DNA of 64,000 bases from Anaerolineae bacterium (lineage in GTDB: Bacteria > Chloroflexota > Anaerolineae > B4-G1 > SLSP01). A program made the translations under genes and the position numbers. A model generated the notes under the pieces. That model ran no database searches. It worked only from the letters and a program-made list of their open reading frames with translations, and had not been told where the DNA came from. This document shows positions 15,860 to 53,837 of the stretch, piece by piece (within the stretch, counting starts at the first letter, position 1; each line of letters starts with the position of its first letter). The DNA is taken from NCBI GenBank assembly GCA_026645815.1, contig JAPKMR010000007.1, forward strand, positions 49,029 to 113,028, written 5' to 3'.

Positions 15860-17746
15860 ATGTACGGTTACAGTGGCAAAATCCTTCACATTGATCTGAA
15901 TACTCGCAAAACATGGACTGAGGAAAAACCAGAAGCCTGGTACAAGCTGTACATTGGCGGTGTCTCAATGGCGGCGCGACTGCTTTGGGAAAACATCGAG
16001 GTGGGCTGCGATCCGCTTTCTCCTGGCAATCCTATCTGCATCGCCAACGGTATTTTTGCCGGCACGCCGGTGCCTGTCGGCGGCAAATATGGATTGGCCT
16101 CCAAGTCCCCGTTGACGGGTTTGATTGGCGATAGCCTTTCGGGTAGCTGGTTTTCTGTAGCTCTCAAGCGCACCGGTTGGGATGGTTTGGTCGTTCATGG
16201 CGCCAGCGACAAGTGGATCACGATATTCATTGATGATGAGCGGGTGCAATTCCGTGATGCCAAGAAACTGTTGGGTTTGGGCACCTACGCCACGGAGGAA
16301 GCCATCCGCGAGGAGCTTGGTGATGATCAGGTACGCTCCGCCACTATTGGCCCAGCGGGGGAGAACGGGGTACTTTTCGCCAACGTGACCAACGATGGGC
16401 GTCAGGCGGGGCGCACGGGGCATGGCGCGGTATGGGGATCTAAGAAGATCAAGGCGATTTCCGTGCGCGGCACGAAAGGTGTGGTGGTAGCCGATCCAGA
16501 TACCTTGCTGCAGATGTCCTTTGATATCTCCGAGACTTCGCAGGGACCTTATACGGTGAAGTATCGAATGTTGGGCACGGCGACCAACGTGCTCAATATG
16601 AACAAACTCGGCTTGTTGCCCACGCGCAACTACCAGGAAGGCACATTTGAGGATGCCGAGCTGGTGAGCGGCGAGTATCTCGAGGAACATTACAAGGTGA
16701 AGAAGATTGCGTGCGCGCAATGTCCTATCGCCTGCGAGCAGATGTCCGCAGCCCCGGATGGTCCTTATAAGGGGGCGATGACGGGAATCGAGTACGAGTG
16801 TCTTTATGCCAACGGTCCAAATTTGGGCATCAACGACCTTCGCGCCGTCATCAAGCTTATCGCAACCTGCGATCAGGGCGGTATGGATGCTATGAGTGGC
16901 GGTGTGACTGTTTCCTGGGCGATGGAGACTTTCGAGCGTGGCGTCTTCACCAAAGAGGATTTCAAGTGCGCCAAGTATCCAGAGGGTTTCGAGCCGTACT
17001 TTGGTAATGCCGAGGCGGCAGTGACCCTCATGGAGATGATTCGCGACCGGGAAGGTATTGGCGACTTGCTCTCGAAGGGGACGCGTCGCGCCAGCGCCAT
17101 TGTGGATGCGGAGCGTGGCACTGAGACCTATAAGTGGGCGATGAATAGCAAGGGCTTGGAAAGCCCCGGCTATGATGCGCGCGGGCTCAAGACGTTTTCT
17201 GTGGGTATCGCCGTGGGAACGCGTGGCGGTTGTCACAACCGTACTGCGGCTTACGACCCAGATATCCAGGGCGAGGTGGATCGCTTCTCAATTGATGACA
17301 CGCGCGGCAGGTTAGCTGCCAGCAGTGAGGAATATGCTGCTGTCTACGACACGTTGCCGCTGTGTAAATTCATCCGCCGTTGCTTTACCGGTAAGGCGGA
17401 CCGCGCCGGCGCCTGGCCCGCCATTGCCAAACTCATCAATGCTACTACCGGTTGGGACTTCGGTTACGATGATGTGGAGCTTATCGGCATTCGTGCGCAT
17501 ACCATCAAGAAGGCCTTCAATATCCGCGAGGGGTGGAAGCGTGCTGATGATGATTTGCCATATCGCTGGAAGCACGACCCTATGACCAAAGGCGCTTCCG
17601 CGGGGCATGTGGTCACCGATGAAGAGCTGGAGTATCTCAAGGACCTCTACTACGCGGCTAAGGGCTGGACCAATGAAGGGCTGATTCCTAAGGCGAAGCT
17701 CATTGAACTGGGGATGGACGATGTCGCCGAGGCAATCGGTGTTTAG
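15860..17746 (+). CDS. Aldehyde:ferredoxin oxidoreductase (W/Mo-bis-pterin family)
   Basis: MYGYSGKILHIDLNTRKTWTEE...KYGLASKSPLTGLIGDSLSGSW...CAQCPIACEQ; RBS ggaggt. Confidence 0.93.
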   Translation: MYGYSGKILHIDLNTRKTWTEEKPEAWYKLYIGGVSMAARLLWENIEVGCDPLSPGNPICIANGIFAGTPVPVGGKYGLASKSPLTGLIGDSLSGSWFSVALKRTGWDGLVVHGASDKWITIFIDDERVQFRDAKKLLGLGTYATEEAIREELGDDQVRSATIGPAGENGVLFANVTNDGRQAGRTGHGAVWGSKKIKAISVRGTKGVVVADPDTLLQMSFDISETSQGPYTVKYRMLGTATNVLNMNKLGLLPTRNYQEGTFEDAELVSGEYLEEHYKVKKIACAQCPIACEQMSAAPDGPYKGAMTGIEYECLYANGPNLGINDLRAVIKLIATCDQGGMDAMSGGVTVSWAMETFERGVFTKEDFKCAKYPEGFEPYFGNAEAAVTLMEMIRDREGIGDLLSKGTRRASAIVDAERGTETYKWAMNSKGLESPGYDARGLKTFSVGIAVGTRGGCHNRTAAYDPDIQGEVDRFSIDDTRGRLAASSEEYAAVYDTLPLCKFIRRCFTGKADRAGAWPAIAKLINATTGWDFGYDDVELIGIRAHTIKKAFNIREGWKRADDDLPYRWKHDPMTKGASAGHVVTDEELEYLKDLYYAAKGWTNEGLIPKAKLIELGMDDVAEAIGV

Positions 17747-48206: not shown

Positions 48207-48235
48207 TTGCATTCCAGATTTTTCGATGCTATAAT
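48207..48235 (+). promoter_or_regulatory. Sigma70-like promoter upstream of the Moco leader
   Basis: TTGCAT (48207-48212)-N17-TATAAT (48230-48235). Confidence 0.6.
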
Positions 48236-48354
48236 TGTGTGTATAGCAAACTATTGGAGTTGCTATCTTAGCTTCAGATGAGGGTTATTGGTTGAGGTAA
48301 TACCAACTTATTCGCCACATGACTAGTTTGCGTGCTCCGAGTTTCATTGCCTAA

Positions 48355-48492
48355 GAACCGTTGCTGGTTGATGGTGTGAAACCGATAGGGTGTAGTGGGA
48401 AACGACTACGCCTCCCGTGTTTGGAAAGGAGCCTCGCCCGCATGCTTTGCCGAAATCCTGGCAGAATGACTGCTTGGAGTTTGGGAGAGGAT
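48355..48492 (+). ncRNA. Candidate molybdenum/tungsten cofactor (Moco RNA motif) riboswitch
   Basis: CGCCTCCCGTGTTTGGAAAGGAGCCTCGCCCGCATGCTTTGCCGAAA resembles remembered Moco RNA core blocks; precedes a Moco enzyme; boundaries approximate. Confidence 0.72.
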
Positions 48493-48495
48493 TAG

Positions 48496-48526
48496 AGCGG
48501 CGTTCCTTTCTGGAACGCCGCTTTTG
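48496..48526 (+). terminator. Intrinsic terminator downstream of riboswitch candidate
   Basis: AGCGGCGTTCC-TTTCT-GGAACGCCGCT followed by TTTTG. Confidence 0.8.
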
Positions 48527-48679
48527 TTATCGGTGTCAGAGTGCCGCAAATGGCCCTTATATCGGCGGGGCGAAGCGTTATTTGATTATCAATGGGGTGT
48601 TTGACTCCACTGCGGTGTGCAGTCGGAGAGGATTCAGTCTGGTATCTGTGACTAGCTACTATCACTTATGGAGGGCGTT

Positions 48680-51403
48680 ATGGAGAAAAAGAGACTGATT
48701 GTCAATGGCACGACCTATATGGTCATTGTTGATCCCGAAGCTTCCCTGGCGACAGTGCTGCGAGAGCAGTTGGGATTGACAGGAACCAAAATTGGTTGTG
48801 GGGTTGGGCAGTGTGGTGCCTGCTCTGTTATTCTTGATGGCAAGTTGGTCCGTTCGTGTGTCACCAAGATGAAGCGCGTGTCAGATGGCGCTGAAGTCGT
48901 GACGGTGGAGGGTGTCGGTAAGCCAGATTCTCTCCACATCATTCAGCAGGCTTTTGTGGTACACGGTGCAGCGCAATGCGGTTTCTGTACACCCGGTTTT
49001 GTGGTCTCCACCAAGGCGCTACTGGATGAGAACCCCAATCCTACCCGTGCTGAAGTTCGCGCCTGGTTCAAAAAGCACCGCAATATCTGCCGCTGTAATG
49101 GCTATAAGCCCTATGTAGATGGCGTGATGGATGCAGCTGCTGTGATGCGCGGTGAAAAATCTTTGGAGACATTGCATTTCGTGATGCCTGAGGATGGCAA
49201 GGTTTGGGGTAGCAAGTACCCGCGACCTTCAGCGGTGCCCAAAGTAACCGGCACCTGGGACTACGGCGCTGACCTGGGTCTGAAGATGCCGCCTGGCACA
49301 CTTCAACTGGCGTTAGTGCAAGCTGAGGTTTCGCACGCGAACATTCTCGGTGTTGATACTTCTGAAGCCGAAGCTATGCCCGGTGTCTACAAGGTTGTCA
49401 CTCACAAGGATGTGCAAGGCAAGAACCGCATCACAGGCTTGATCACCTTCCCCACGAACAAGGGAGACGGCTGGGACCGCCCGATTCTGTGCGATAGCAA
49501 GGTTTTCCAGTATGGTGATGCTATTGCCATCGTTTGTGCGGATACGGAAGCGCATGCACGTGAGGCGGCGAAGAAGGTCAAGGTGGACCTGGAAATACTC
49601 CCTCCGTATATGAGTGCGCCTGCTGCAATGGCGGAGGATGCGCTGGAGATTCACCCCGGCACACCCAATGTTTACTTCGAGATCCCCATCGTCAAGGGTG
49701 AGGATACCAAGCCCATCATGGATTCCGCGGCCTATGTGGTGGAAGGTAACTACTATCTGCAGCGCCAACCACACCTGACTATCGAGCCAGATGTTGGTCT
49801 GGCATACTTTGATGAGGCGGGTCGTCTCACCATTCACTCCAAGAGTATTGGCATTCACCTGCACCATGCCATGATCGCTCCCGGTCTGGGCATTGAGCCA
49901 GAGAAACTGCGTCTGGTGCAGAACAATGCGGGTGGCACGTTTGGGTACAAGTTCAGCCCGACGATGGAAGCGCTGTTGGGTGTTGCCGCGATGGCGACGG
50001 GATGCCCGGTCGTGCTCAAGTATGATTACAAGCAGCACATCACCTATACTGGGAAGCGCTCGCCATTCTTCATCAGCCTCAAATTCGCTGCTGATAAGGA
50101 TGGCAAGCTGTTGGCGATGGAGAGCGACTGGACAGTGGACCACGGTCCCTATTCTGAGTTTGGCGATCTGTTGACGTTGCGTGGCGCGCAGTATATCGGC
50201 TCGGGCTACAATATCCCCAGCATTCGTGGTTTGGGACGGACGGTGTGCACCAATCACGCCTGGGGGTCGGCTTTCCGGGCATATGGTTCGCCGCAGGCCT
50301 TCCTGGCTTCCGAGAGCTTGATGGACGAACTGGCAGAGAAGATGGGGATGGATCCGTGGGAACTGCGTTACAGGAATGTCTATCGCAAAGGCTCGACGAC
50401 GCCTACGGGGCAAGACCCGGAGGTGTACAGCCTGCCGGATTTGCTGGAGGCGATCCGCCCGCACTATGAAGCCGCCAAGAAGCGTGTAAAGGAGACCTCC
50501 ACCGCTGAAGTTAAGCGCGGTGTCGGCATCTCTATTGGCCTCTATGGTTGTGGCCTGGATGGGGTGGATAGCTCTGCGGCGACGGTGGAACTGACGCCAG
50601 AAGGTGTGACGGTCTACTCAAGCTGGGAGGATCACGGACAAGGCGCTGATATGGGCGTTCTGGGGACTGCACATGAGGGATTGCGCCCTCTGGGTATTGC
50701 ACCAGATAAGATCAAACTGGTGATGAACGATACCGCTGTTACGCCCAACAGTGGCCCTGCTGGTGGAAGTCGCTCGCAGGTGATGACCGGTAACGCGATC
50801 AAGAACGCTTGTGAGAAACTGGTCGCCGCGATGCAGAAGCCCGGCGGCGGCTTCTATACCTATAACGAGGCGGTTGCAGCCGGTTTGGCGCTCAAGTATG
50901 AGGGGCAATGGGCCGCCGCTATGAACAGCAACTGCGATCTTACAACCTCGCAGGGCAACCCCTTCGCGGTTTACATGTACGGTGCCTTTGTCGTTGAGGT
51001 AGCAGTTGAGTTGAAGACGGGCAAGACAACGGTCGAGCGGATGGTGGTCGCTGCCGATATCGGCAAGATCAACAACAAGCTGGTCGTGGACGGGCAGATC
51101 TATGGTGGCGTAGCGCAGGGTATCGGCCTGGCGCTCACTGAGGATTTTGAGGACCTGGAGAAGCACACCAGCATGGTTGCTTGCGGTATCCCCGAGGCCA
51201 CGGATATTCCCGATGACTTCGAGATCATCTATATCGAGACGCCGCGCGAGCACGGCCCGTTCGGGGCTGCTGGCGTAGGCGAGTTGCCGTTGACTTCGCC
51301 GCATGTAGCGATTGTCAATGCTATCGCTAATGCCACCGGGGTGCGCATCCATGCACTCCCCGCGCTGCCTGAGAAGGTGCTGGCCGGGTTGAATCGGGCC
51401 TAA
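48680..51403 (+). CDS. Xanthine dehydrogenase/aldehyde oxidoreductase-family Moco protein with fused N-terminal 2x[2Fe-2S] domain (Mop-like)
   Basis: CGVGQCGACSVILDGKLVRSC, AQCGFCTPGFVVS, HRNICRCNGYKPYV; Moco region GGTFGYKFSPTMEALLG, WGSAFRAYGSPQ, GPFGAAGVGELPL; RBS GGAGG before 48680. Confidence 0.93.
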   Translation: MEKKRLIVNGTTYMVIVDPEASLATVLREQLGLTGTKIGCGVGQCGACSVILDGKLVRSCVTKMKRVSDGAEVVTVEGVGKPDSLHIIQQAFVVHGAAQCGFCTPGFVVSTKALLDENPNPTRAEVRAWFKKHRNICRCNGYKPYVDGVMDAAAVMRGEKSLETLHFVMPEDGKVWGSKYPRPSAVPKVTGTWDYGADLGLKMPPGTLQLALVQAEVSHANILGVDTSEAEAMPGVYKVVTHKDVQGKNRITGLITFPTNKGDGWDRPILCDSKVFQYGDAIAIVCADTEAHAREAAKKVKVDLEILPPYMSAPAAMAEDALEIHPGTPNVYFEIPIVKGEDTKPIMDSAAYVVEGNYYLQRQPHLTIEPDVGLAYFDEAGRLTIHSKSIGIHLHHAMIAPGLGIEPEKLRLVQNNAGGTFGYKFSPTMEALLGVAAMATGCPVVLKYDYKQHITYTGKRSPFFISLKFAADKDGKLLAMESDWTVDHGPYSEFGDLLTLRGAQYIGSGYNIPSIRGLGRTVCTNHAWGSAFRAYGSPQAFLASESLMDELAEKMGMDPWELRYRNVYRKGSTTPTGQDPEVYSLPDLLEAIRPHYEAAKKRVKETSTAEVKRGVGISIGLYGCGLDGVDSSAATVELTPEGVTVYSSWEDHGQGADMGVLGTAHEGLRPLGIAPDKIKLVMNDTAVTPNSGPAGGSRSQVMTGNAIKNACEKLVAAMQKPGGGFYTYNEAVAAGLALKYEGQWAAAMNSNCDLTTSQGNPFAVYMYGAFVVEVAVELKTGKTTVERMVVAADIGKINNKLVVDGQIYGGVAQGIGLALTEDFEDLEKHTSMVACGIPEATDIPDDFEIIYIETPREHGPFGAAGVGELPLTSPHVAIVNAIANATGVRIHALPALPEKVLAGLNRA

Positions 51404-51527: not shown

Positions 51528-53837
51528 ATGGATCAGAAGGAACTGCGCGAGCTGGAATCTCAATGTATTCAGGAACACGCGCCGCCCTGTACAGCGGCGT
51601 GCCCATTGCACGTAGATGTGCGTGGCGTTTTAGCCGCTTTGGCTAATGAAGATTTCGATGCGGCATTGCAGTCACTGGTCAAGCGGCTTCCCTTTCCCGG
51701 AATCATCGGTCGCGTCTGCGAGCAGCCCTGTCGTAGCGTTTGCAACCGCAAGGATGTGGGGGAGGCGCTAGAAATTGCAGCACTAGAGCGCGCCTGTGCC
51801 ACTTTTGGGACGCTTTCGGGTTCTGCCCGGCGCATTCCACCGCGTGGGAAGCGTGTGGCGGTGATTGGGGGTGGCTTGAGTGGCGTCATGACGGCATTAT
51901 TGCTAACACGGAAGGCGCACAGTGTGACGCTCTTCGAGGCCACAGAGCGCCTGGGTGGCGCCCTGTGGCTCACGCCGGAGGATTTGTTGCCGCGCGAGGT
52001 GCTGGTAGCGGAGTTGGAATTGGCCGTGCGCGATGTGGATCTGCGAATGCAGCATCCGGTGGCAGTTCCTGACCTGGAATCCTTGCGCGCGGAGTATGAC
52101 GCAATCTATCTGGGGGTGGGGAGCTCTGCGACGGGCGATTTTGGTGCTTTGCTGGCGGAGGTAGATTCTTTAACTCTGGCAACGCCGAGAATGGGGATTT
52201 TTGCCGGCGGGCGTGCAACTTCGGAAACGCCCGGTTTCATTGACTCGCTCAGCAGCGGGCATCGCGCGGCGATCTCCATTGACCGCTATCTTCAGAAGGC
52301 TTCACTCACAGCCTCGCGCGATAACGAAGGATCGTATACGACCCGGCTATTCACCAATCTGGAGGGAGTGGCACCAACGCCCGCAGTAATTCCTGCTACA
52401 CCAGTCTTGGGCTATACCCGCGCCGAAGCTGTGGCGGAGGCTCGGCGTTGTATTCAGTGCGAGTGCATGGAATGTGTCAAGGTCTGCGCTTATCTCCAGC
52501 ACTTTGGCAGTTATCCCAAACAGTACTTGCGCCAGATTTACAACAACCTGTCCATCGTGATGGGTGAGAGACATTTCAATATCCTGATCAACTCGTGCAG
52601 CTTATGTGGACTGTGCGGCGAGGTGTGCCCTGAGGGGTTGAACATGGCGCCGGTGTGCCGTGACGCCCGGCAGTTGATGGTAACGCAGAAACGGATGCCG
52701 CCCTCGGCGCATGACTTTGCCCTGCGTGATATGGCTTTTAGCAACAGCTCGACGGCGGCGCTGGCACGCTGCGCTCCGGGGACTGAACGCTGTGATTACA
52801 TTTTCTTCCCAGGCTGTCAATTGGATGCTTCAGCGCCAGAGCACGTGATGCAGGTGTATGATTATCTGCACAAGACTTTGCCCAATGTGGGGCTTCTGCT
52901 GCGGTGTTGCGGCGCACCCGCTGATTGGGCCGGGCGCCGTGATCTCTTCGAGGAGACCGTTGCGGCTTTCCGCGCAGATTATGCGGCGCTGGGCGGTGGG
53001 ACGGTTATTCTGGCGTGCTCTACCTGCTACCAGATGTTCAAAACGCATCTGCCGGATGTGCCGGTGGTTTCGTTGTGGGAGATTTTCGACACCTATGGTT
53101 TGCCAGAACATGTGCCTTTGATTCAACCGCCGGCATTGGCAATCCACGATCCTTGTACTACACGTTACGAAAGTGGTGTGCAGGACAGTGCCCGGAACGT
53201 ACTGTCCACTTTGGGTTGTGAGATTGAAGAGTTGCCATTGAACCGTGAGCACACGGAGTGCTGTAGTTATGGTGGCTTGATGTGGTTGGCAAATCGCTCA
53301 CTGGCGGAGACCGTGGTGCAGCGCCGTATCGCTGAGCACCCGGCGGATTATGTGACCTATTGCGCCATGTGTCGTGATTTCTTTGCGGATCAAGGGAAAC
53401 CTACATTGCACGTGCTGGATGTGCTTTTTGAGCGCGATTTGCCGGCGCGGGCGATGCGCCCGGGTCCACGTTTCTCGCAACGCCATGATAATCGGGCGTG
53501 GTTGAAACGCACTTTGTTAGCTGATGTCTGGGAGGAGACGATGGGCGAAGTCCAAGCTGCGACCGTTCCCTTGCACTTCGCGGAGGCTGTTGCCGAGCGA
53601 ATTGATCGAAGATTGATCCTTGAGGAGGATATTCGCGAGGTCATTGGCTATGTGGAACGCACCGGGAATTGCTTCCGCCACCCCAGTACCGGACACTTTT
53701 TGGCTTACTACAAACCTGCCAATGTGACCTATTGGGTAGAATACAGCCCCGCTGAGGATGGCTACACCATCTACAACGCTTACAGTCACCGGATGGAGAT
53801 TGTCATGCAGCCGAAAGCACAGGAGGCTCAAGAATGA
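51528..53837 (+). CDS. FAD/NAD(P) oxidoreductase with dicluster-binding and CCG (HdrB/GlpC-like) domains (DVU_1558-like)
   Basis: CIQEHAPPCTAACPLHVDVRG, RVAVIGGGLSGVMTALLL, CSLCGLCGEVCPEGLNM, FPGCQLDAS, RCCGAPADWAG, CSTCYQMF, ECCSYGGL. Confidence 0.88.
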   Translation: MDQKELRELESQCIQEHAPPCTAACPLHVDVRGVLAALANEDFDAALQSLVKRLPFPGIIGRVCEQPCRSVCNRKDVGEALEIAALERACATFGTLSGSARRIPPRGKRVAVIGGGLSGVMTALLLTRKAHSVTLFEATERLGGALWLTPEDLLPREVLVAELELAVRDVDLRMQHPVAVPDLESLRAEYDAIYLGVGSSATGDFGALLAEVDSLTLATPRMGIFAGGRATSETPGFIDSLSSGHRAAISIDRYLQKASLTASRDNEGSYTTRLFTNLEGVAPTPAVIPATPVLGYTRAEAVAEARRCIQCECMECVKVCAYLQHFGSYPKQYLRQIYNNLSIVMGERHFNILINSCSLCGLCGEVCPEGLNMAPVCRDARQLMVTQKRMPPSAHDFALRDMAFSNSSTAALARCAPGTERCDYIFFPGCQLDASAPEHVMQVYDYLHKTLPNVGLLLRCCGAPADWAGRRDLFEETVAAFRADYAALGGGTVILACSTCYQMFKTHLPDVPVVSLWEIFDTYGLPEHVPLIQPPALAIHDPCTTRYESGVQDSARNVLSTLGCEIEELPLNREHTECCSYGGLMWLANRSLAETVVQRRIAEHPADYVTYCAMCRDFFADQGKPTLHVLDVLFERDLPARAMRPGPRFSQRHDNRAWLKRTLLADVWEETMGEVQAATVPLHFAEAVAERIDRRLILEEDIREVIGYVERTGNCFRHPSTGHFLAYYKPANVTYWVEYSPAEDGYTIYNAYSHRMEIVMQPKAQEAQE

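Follow-up and report, generated by a model that had tools for sequence, protein, structure and literature searches.

A P3-less RF01055 riboswitch predicted to act as an OFF attenuator of a molybdenum aldehyde oxidoreductase gene in an Anaerolineae bacterium

The leader of a molybdenum aldehyde oxidoreductase (MOP) gene of an Anaerolineae bacterium contains an element that is almost certainly a genuine aptamer of the Moco/Wco riboswitch class RF01055. From its sequence and predicted folding, this P3-less switch probably attenuates the transcription of the MOP gene as an OFF switch (probability about 0.85). The fuller statement, that the OFF attenuator controls the MOP gene in response to a ligand of the Moco or Wco type, is nearly as probable. 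The window, meaning the whole stretch of 64,000 nucleotides that was analysed, includes the following features, with the basis of each assignment.

48207..48235 (+): promoter with −35 TTGCAT (48207-48212), 17-nt spacer and hexamer TATAAT (48230-48235; extended −10 TGCTATAAT); from the sequence.
48324..48447 (+): P3-less RF01055 aptamer; cmscan, our own model and covariation in 25 aptamers.
48334..48338 (+): P1 5' strand GCUCC, partner 48428-48432; cmscan alignment and folding.
48388..48413 (+): P4 helix with GAAA tetraloop cap, including GTAGT/ACTAC; cmscan alignment and covariation.
48424..48432 (+): putative switching strand GAAAGGAGC, P1 3' strand when bound and antiterminator 5' strand when free; truncated-transcript folding, covariation and permutation tests.
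48442..48492 (+): linker hairpin joining both antiterminator strands; folding only.
48495..48528 (+): predicted intrinsic terminator, stem 48495-48506/48512-48523 plus U tail; folding, conserved in five Chloroflexota MOP leaders.
48680..51403 (+): gene for MOP-type molybdenum aldehyde oxidoreductase, 907 aa; Pfam, NCBIfam NF045668 and PDB relatives.
51528..53837 (+): next gene, for a pyridine nucleotide-disulfide oxidoreductase/dicluster-binding protein; NCBIfam NF045663, 1012 bits.

A sequence-only reading of this DNA had proposed a candidate Moco riboswitch, to be checked by cmscan, and this search gave RF01055 on the plus strand at 48324-48447 with 69.4 bits (E 1.2e-14), about twice the gathering cut-off of 36 bits. 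The alignment covers model positions 1-135 in full, and this is the sole riboswitch match of the Rfam scan within the 64 kb. A custom covariance model built from 25 aptamers, the window's own included, scored the same site at 112.5 bits and matched no other place in the window. Within these 25 aptamers, compensatory changes, in which both partners vary and pairing is retained, were detected for 19 of the 29 consensus pairs, with P1, P2 and P4 each covarying; the covariation expected by the sequence-only reading in homologous leaders is thus present in the aptamer helices. The leader segment 48242-48530 folds with z = −4.6 relative to dinucleotide shuffles. Helix P3 is absent, its model positions being deleted in the cmscan alignment. 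The P4 loop GGGAAAC and the P2 receptor CCUAAG...UGAUGG provide the sequences of both a GNRA tetraloop and its receptor, the contact between them being predicted, and the CCUA of the receptor is invariant in alignment A1. The GTAGT/ACTAC helix, formerly described as an element on the 5' side of the core, is actually the aptamer's own P4 with its GAAA cap. The interval originally proposed, 48355-48526, opens inside P2 and cuts off the 5' part of the aptamer, which begins 31 nt further upstream. RF01055 is expected upstream of genes for synthesis, transport or use of the molybdenum or tungsten cofactor, and the MOP gene lies directly downstream. The window element adds one more member to a riboswitch class already known.

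The predicted promoter was located where TTGCAT-N17-TATAAT had been recognized, and its extended −10 element is shared by each of the five orthologous Chloroflexota leaders in the comparison, while the −35 element is kept in one or two of the five, including the closest one. With the start site placed at about 48242 and the ATG at 48680, the leader measures about 438 nt, in agreement with the earlier estimate of about 440 nt. The GC-rich terminator stem noticed at the same time has a folding energy of −23 kcal/mol and is followed by the tail UUGUU, an interrupted U-run. A stricter consensus scan for promoters and terminators listed neither the promoter nor the terminator of this leader, owing to the poor −35 element and the break in the U-run.

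The sequence GUUCCUUUC (48502-48510), which forms part of the terminator 5' arm and loop, is also the predicted 3' strand of an antiterminator, being complementary to GAAAGGAGC (48424-48432), within which the P1 3' strand lies. In the folding of truncated transcripts, P1 was kept up to 48506, was displaced by the antiterminator at 48510-48516, and was favoured again, together with the terminator, once the terminator 3' arm had been transcribed. For the transcript ending at 48513, the antiterminator form reached −75.7 kcal/mol, as compared with −70.8 kcal/mol with P1 forced. The minimum-energy fold of the full-length leader is the terminated form, with aptamer and terminator together, and therefore the switch must act during transcription. 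In the absence of ligand, GAAAGGAGC would quit P1 and pair with GUUCCUUUC as RNA polymerase passes about 48510-48516, and the antiterminator so formed would allow transcription to carry on into the MOP gene. In its presence, the aptamer would hold GAAAGGAGC in P1, the terminator at 48495-48523 would form and the gene would be turned off. By keeping P1 paired, a bound ligand would block the path to the antiterminator, an arrangement typical of OFF attenuators; the ligand itself, the kinetics and the effect in the cell are inferred.

For a comparison over related leaders, 132 aptamer loci were oriented and typed; the organism's own genome and its relatives supplied 106 of them, and the remaining 26 came from genomes in which other MOP loci lie. 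The test set consisted of the 63 leaders whose terminator is separate from the aptamer; these leaders share descent and the counts are hence not independent. The native tail/terminator duplex in this set was −17.3 kcal/mol versus −14.8 kcal/mol after swapping, and none of 5000 permutations reached the native value. When permutation was allowed inside gene classes only, the values were −18.3 and −16.7 kcal/mol, again with none of 5000 reaching the native one. A CCUUUC-like motif was present in 35 of the 63 separate-terminator arms and in 7 of the 134 remaining terminators at these loci, and partition-function folding predicted an antiterminator in 48 of 63 leaders versus 11% with shuffled arms. 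The terminator loop follows the aptamer sequence: GAAAGG aptamers were accompanied by the loop UUUC in 34 cases and UUGC in 2, the GCAAGG aptamers of Synergistota by UUGC in 3 and UUUC in none. The GAAAGG and GCAAGG leaders could be told apart by this loop motif only when counting was confined to the terminator arm; over 130 nt downstream, no separation was seen. For the direct MOP leader of Desulfomicrobium (L199), no antiterminator was predicted. The predicted terminator/antiterminator platform recurs in most relatives and exceeds both the shuffled and the cross-paired controls, and the attenuation architecture suspected from the single sequence, still a prediction, is conserved in homologous leaders. 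The aptamer, the terminator, their mutually exclusive pairing, the covariation and the recurrence are well supported at the level of sequence.

Two other explanations of the hairpin were weighed against the OFF attenuator. The aptamer could be an ON switch or lack a transcriptional role, the terminator being constitutive or part of another transcript and the aptamer acting otherwise, for instance on translation. This would agree with the minimum-energy fold that holds aptamer and terminator together, with the gene start 150 nt further downstream, and with the lack of a typed terminator in four MOP-classed leaders and about one third of the WtpA/TupA leaders. The terminator loop and arm, however, match the switching strand far above the controls and covary across many leaders, and a true ON layout looks different, as found at AOR (tungsten aldehyde ferredoxin oxidoreductase) genes, which makes this explanation improbable. 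A lax search also matched the ribosomal protein L20 leader (RF00558) at 48420-48535 with 30.8 bits; this is far under the gathering score of 58.7, the similarity comes from a GC hairpin and its U tail, and the gene downstream does not encode a ribosomal protein. The L20 assignment was rejected; it and the alternative of a terminator hairpin arisen by chance are both extremely improbable.

The gene after the switch, where a Moco enzyme had been expected, is by its sequence a Desulfovibrio-gigas-type molybdenum aldehyde oxidoreductase: the protein scores 1669 bits against NF045668 (cut-off, 1100), and its closest solved relatives are 1sij and 1dgj, both aldehyde oxidoreductases. An alternative in-frame start is possible at ATG 48668, and the gene at 51528..53837 is possibly co-transcribed. 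Elsewhere in the window, an AOR-family match (AFOR_C) is located at 16544-17716 (+) (G000:C205:65572-66744), with no RF01055 match nearby.

RF01055 was detected in 52 of 60 relatives, and four copies exist in the organism's own genome. The nearest MOP locus (96% identity) belongs to Chloroflexi bacterium UR.bin201, and the next three to organisms named Anaerolineae or Chloroflexi bacterium. When 80 MOP loci, drawn from a wide range of phyla, were surveyed, an RF01055-type aptamer was found upstream in nine, four in Chloroflexota, three in Synergistota, one in Desulfomicrobium and one, with two aptamers in tandem, in Thermodesulfobacteriota; most Desulfovibrio-type mop loci in this survey were without it. 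Tandem RF01055 elements were also observed in four Chloroflexota-type relatives (G033:C292, G039:C119, G053:C28 and G006:C259); the tandem before the MOP gene of the Thermodesulfobacteriota MAG is at L046:2321-2727.

The same genomes carry sister switches. Before AOR genes stands a shorter RF01055 form of about 111 nt, with a GCAA loop and without the P2 receptor, and P3 is absent in most of these short aptamers. The terminator of the AOR leaders starts at AAAGGAGG, inside the P1 3' strand, so that closing P1 would remove the terminator, as in an ON switch. Automatic typing of AOR-classed leaders gave 33 of 41 as ON and none as OFF, the AOR match lying 1.3 kb away for one of the 33 (G054_L142). 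Eight leaders were left untyped: the hairpin is present in seven, not always with a good U-run, and absent from one (Desulfomicrobium L206); with these seven included, the ON layout is found in 40 of 41. MOP-classed leaders were typed as OFF in nine cases and as ON in none; the MOP match is 1 kb off in one of them (L215), and an antiterminator was predicted for seven of the eight direct ones. All three leaders of NAD-dependent aldehyde dehydrogenase genes, including one of the own genome, were OFF, as were all typed leaders of tupB, wtpA, tupA, moaA, molybdopterin-domain and AA_kinase-type genes, while two leaders of formate-dehydrogenase-like genes were ON. A MOP-OFF and an AOR-ON leader occur together in the own genome (L003 and L004) and likewise in G003, G005 and G038. 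In two Synergistota genomes, an AOR-type ON leader accompanies a MOP switch, the MOP terminator being without a U-run in one (L198). The MOP-OFF/AOR-ON pair is found in both Chloroflexota and Synergistota.

Several further loci were noted. The NAD-dependent aldehyde dehydrogenases behind the P3-less RF01055 elements L001, L124 and L125 are metal-free enzymes close to glutamate semialdehyde dehydrogenase. Genus g15 has AOR-type ON leaders (L181, L158, L179 and L174) with no AOR gene within the 0.65-1.5 kb examined downstream; these leaders may be orphans, their genes may have moved, or they may act on another target. At 14 loci (L002, L012, L128, L005, L019, L023, L028, L030 and others), RF01055 precedes a fusion of an ECF S-component-like domain (PF09819) with PF00174, a molybdopterin-oxidoreductase-type domain. 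This fusion is a membrane protein, its platforms are mostly OFF, and it may take part in uptake connected with the cofactor or with its metal. The switches at L138, L192 and L205 precede AA_kinase-family proteins (PF00696), which we take to resemble molybdenum storage protein subunits. Palindromic GGTTGC-NNN-GCAACC repeats, which look like a small mobile repeat, are inserted where P3 would lie in the 153-nt L012 aptamer and occur in the L001 stretch as well.

As to the ligand, 17 of 19 organisms hosting P3-less RNAs carry tungsten genes, and molybdenum-enzyme genes under P3-less RNAs might be repressed by the tungsten cofactor (Tuco) given a tungsten alternative (Regulski et al. 2008, PMC2408646). 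The present case matches that situation: P3 is absent, AOR was found in 49 of 49 genomes searched in the order, and the own genome, which has seven AFOR_C matches, contains a TupA-like protein (62% identity), while ModA and WtpA, sought in the same genome, gave no match. The absence of P3 alone is not decisive, because AOR-type aptamers of genus g10 (L163, L150, L152 and L149) carry a P3-like hairpin, which goes against equating P3-less aptamers with tungsten; assignment of the ligand from P3 alone was ruled out. The controlled gene encodes a molybdenum enzyme, which fits the tungsten-cofactor subtype only if Wco represses MOP. Tungsten in place of molybdenum inactivates enzymes of the xanthine-oxidase family.

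The same OFF attenuator could instead respond to the ordinary molybdenum cofactor, as feedback repression of MOP when free Moco is plentiful. The controlled gene is that of a molybdenum enzyme, and the sole Moco RNA tested, that of E. coli, reacts to Moco but shows no response to tungsten (PMC2408646); that RNA, however, has P3, which the window aptamer lacks. Moreover, the sister AOR switches are ON, and it would make little sense for Moco to repress a Moco-using enzyme and yet activate a tungsten AOR; the presence of TupA without a ModA match in the own genome also argues against Moco, leaving this ligand rather unlikely. A tungsten-cofactor ligand makes both OFF at MOP and ON at AOR sensible, while a molybdenum cofactor makes the sign at MOP odd. 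We therefore lean somewhat towards the tungsten cofactor as ligand. Under sufficient tungsten, MOP would then be shut off and the tungsten AOR turned on through the sister ON switches. Growth of D. gigas with tungsten leads to a tungsten AOR (PMC10221389), which fits the tungsten reading. The wider scheme, in which P3-less RF01055 senses the tungsten cofactor, with AOR ON and MOP, NAD-dependent aldehyde dehydrogenase and metal uptake genes OFF, and aldehyde oxidisers are swapped by tungsten supply, has about an even chance of being correct.

Compared with the RF01055 motif as originally described (PMC2408646), the window RNA shares the full-length model, the conserved core, the P4 GAAA tetraloop, a Moco-enzyme gene downstream and, as in some described members, a terminator-type platform. 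It differs in lacking P3, as does the proposed Tuco subtype, and in its host, since Chloroflexota are absent from the 2008 list; unlike what is expected for a tungsten-linked subtype, it controls a molybdenum enzyme. The closest parallel is Syntrophomonas wolfei, where P3-less RNAs precede putative Moco sulphite oxidases, so that in both cases the tungsten-linked subtype stands before a molybdenum-enzyme gene; for S. wolfei the authors suggested Tuco repression if a tungsten alternative exists (PMC2408646). What sets the present case apart is that a switch of opposite wiring precedes the tungsten alternative, AOR, within one genome, and that the layout of the OFF platform has been worked out. 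The E. coli moaA Moco riboswitch (PMC2408646) is likewise an OFF switch with P1 as part of the platform, but it acts on a ribosome binding site and has P3, whereas the window switch is P3-less with a predicted terminator/antiterminator.

Opposed wiring of functionally similar tungsten, molybdenum and metal-free enzymes, of which no description was found in the literature searched, is the added interest of this system, although it had earlier been suggested in outline. Whether P3-less RF01055 RNAs sense the tungsten cofactor has been a standing question since 2008, because the cofactor is too unstable for direct binding assays. With an ON switch at the tungsten enzyme and an OFF switch at its molybdenum counterpart, opposite reporter responses to one metal would be expected, which brings the question within reach of a laboratory strain. 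If the tungsten reading is true, a single riboswitch class would, depending on the metal supply, regulate enzymes of similar function with opposite sign.
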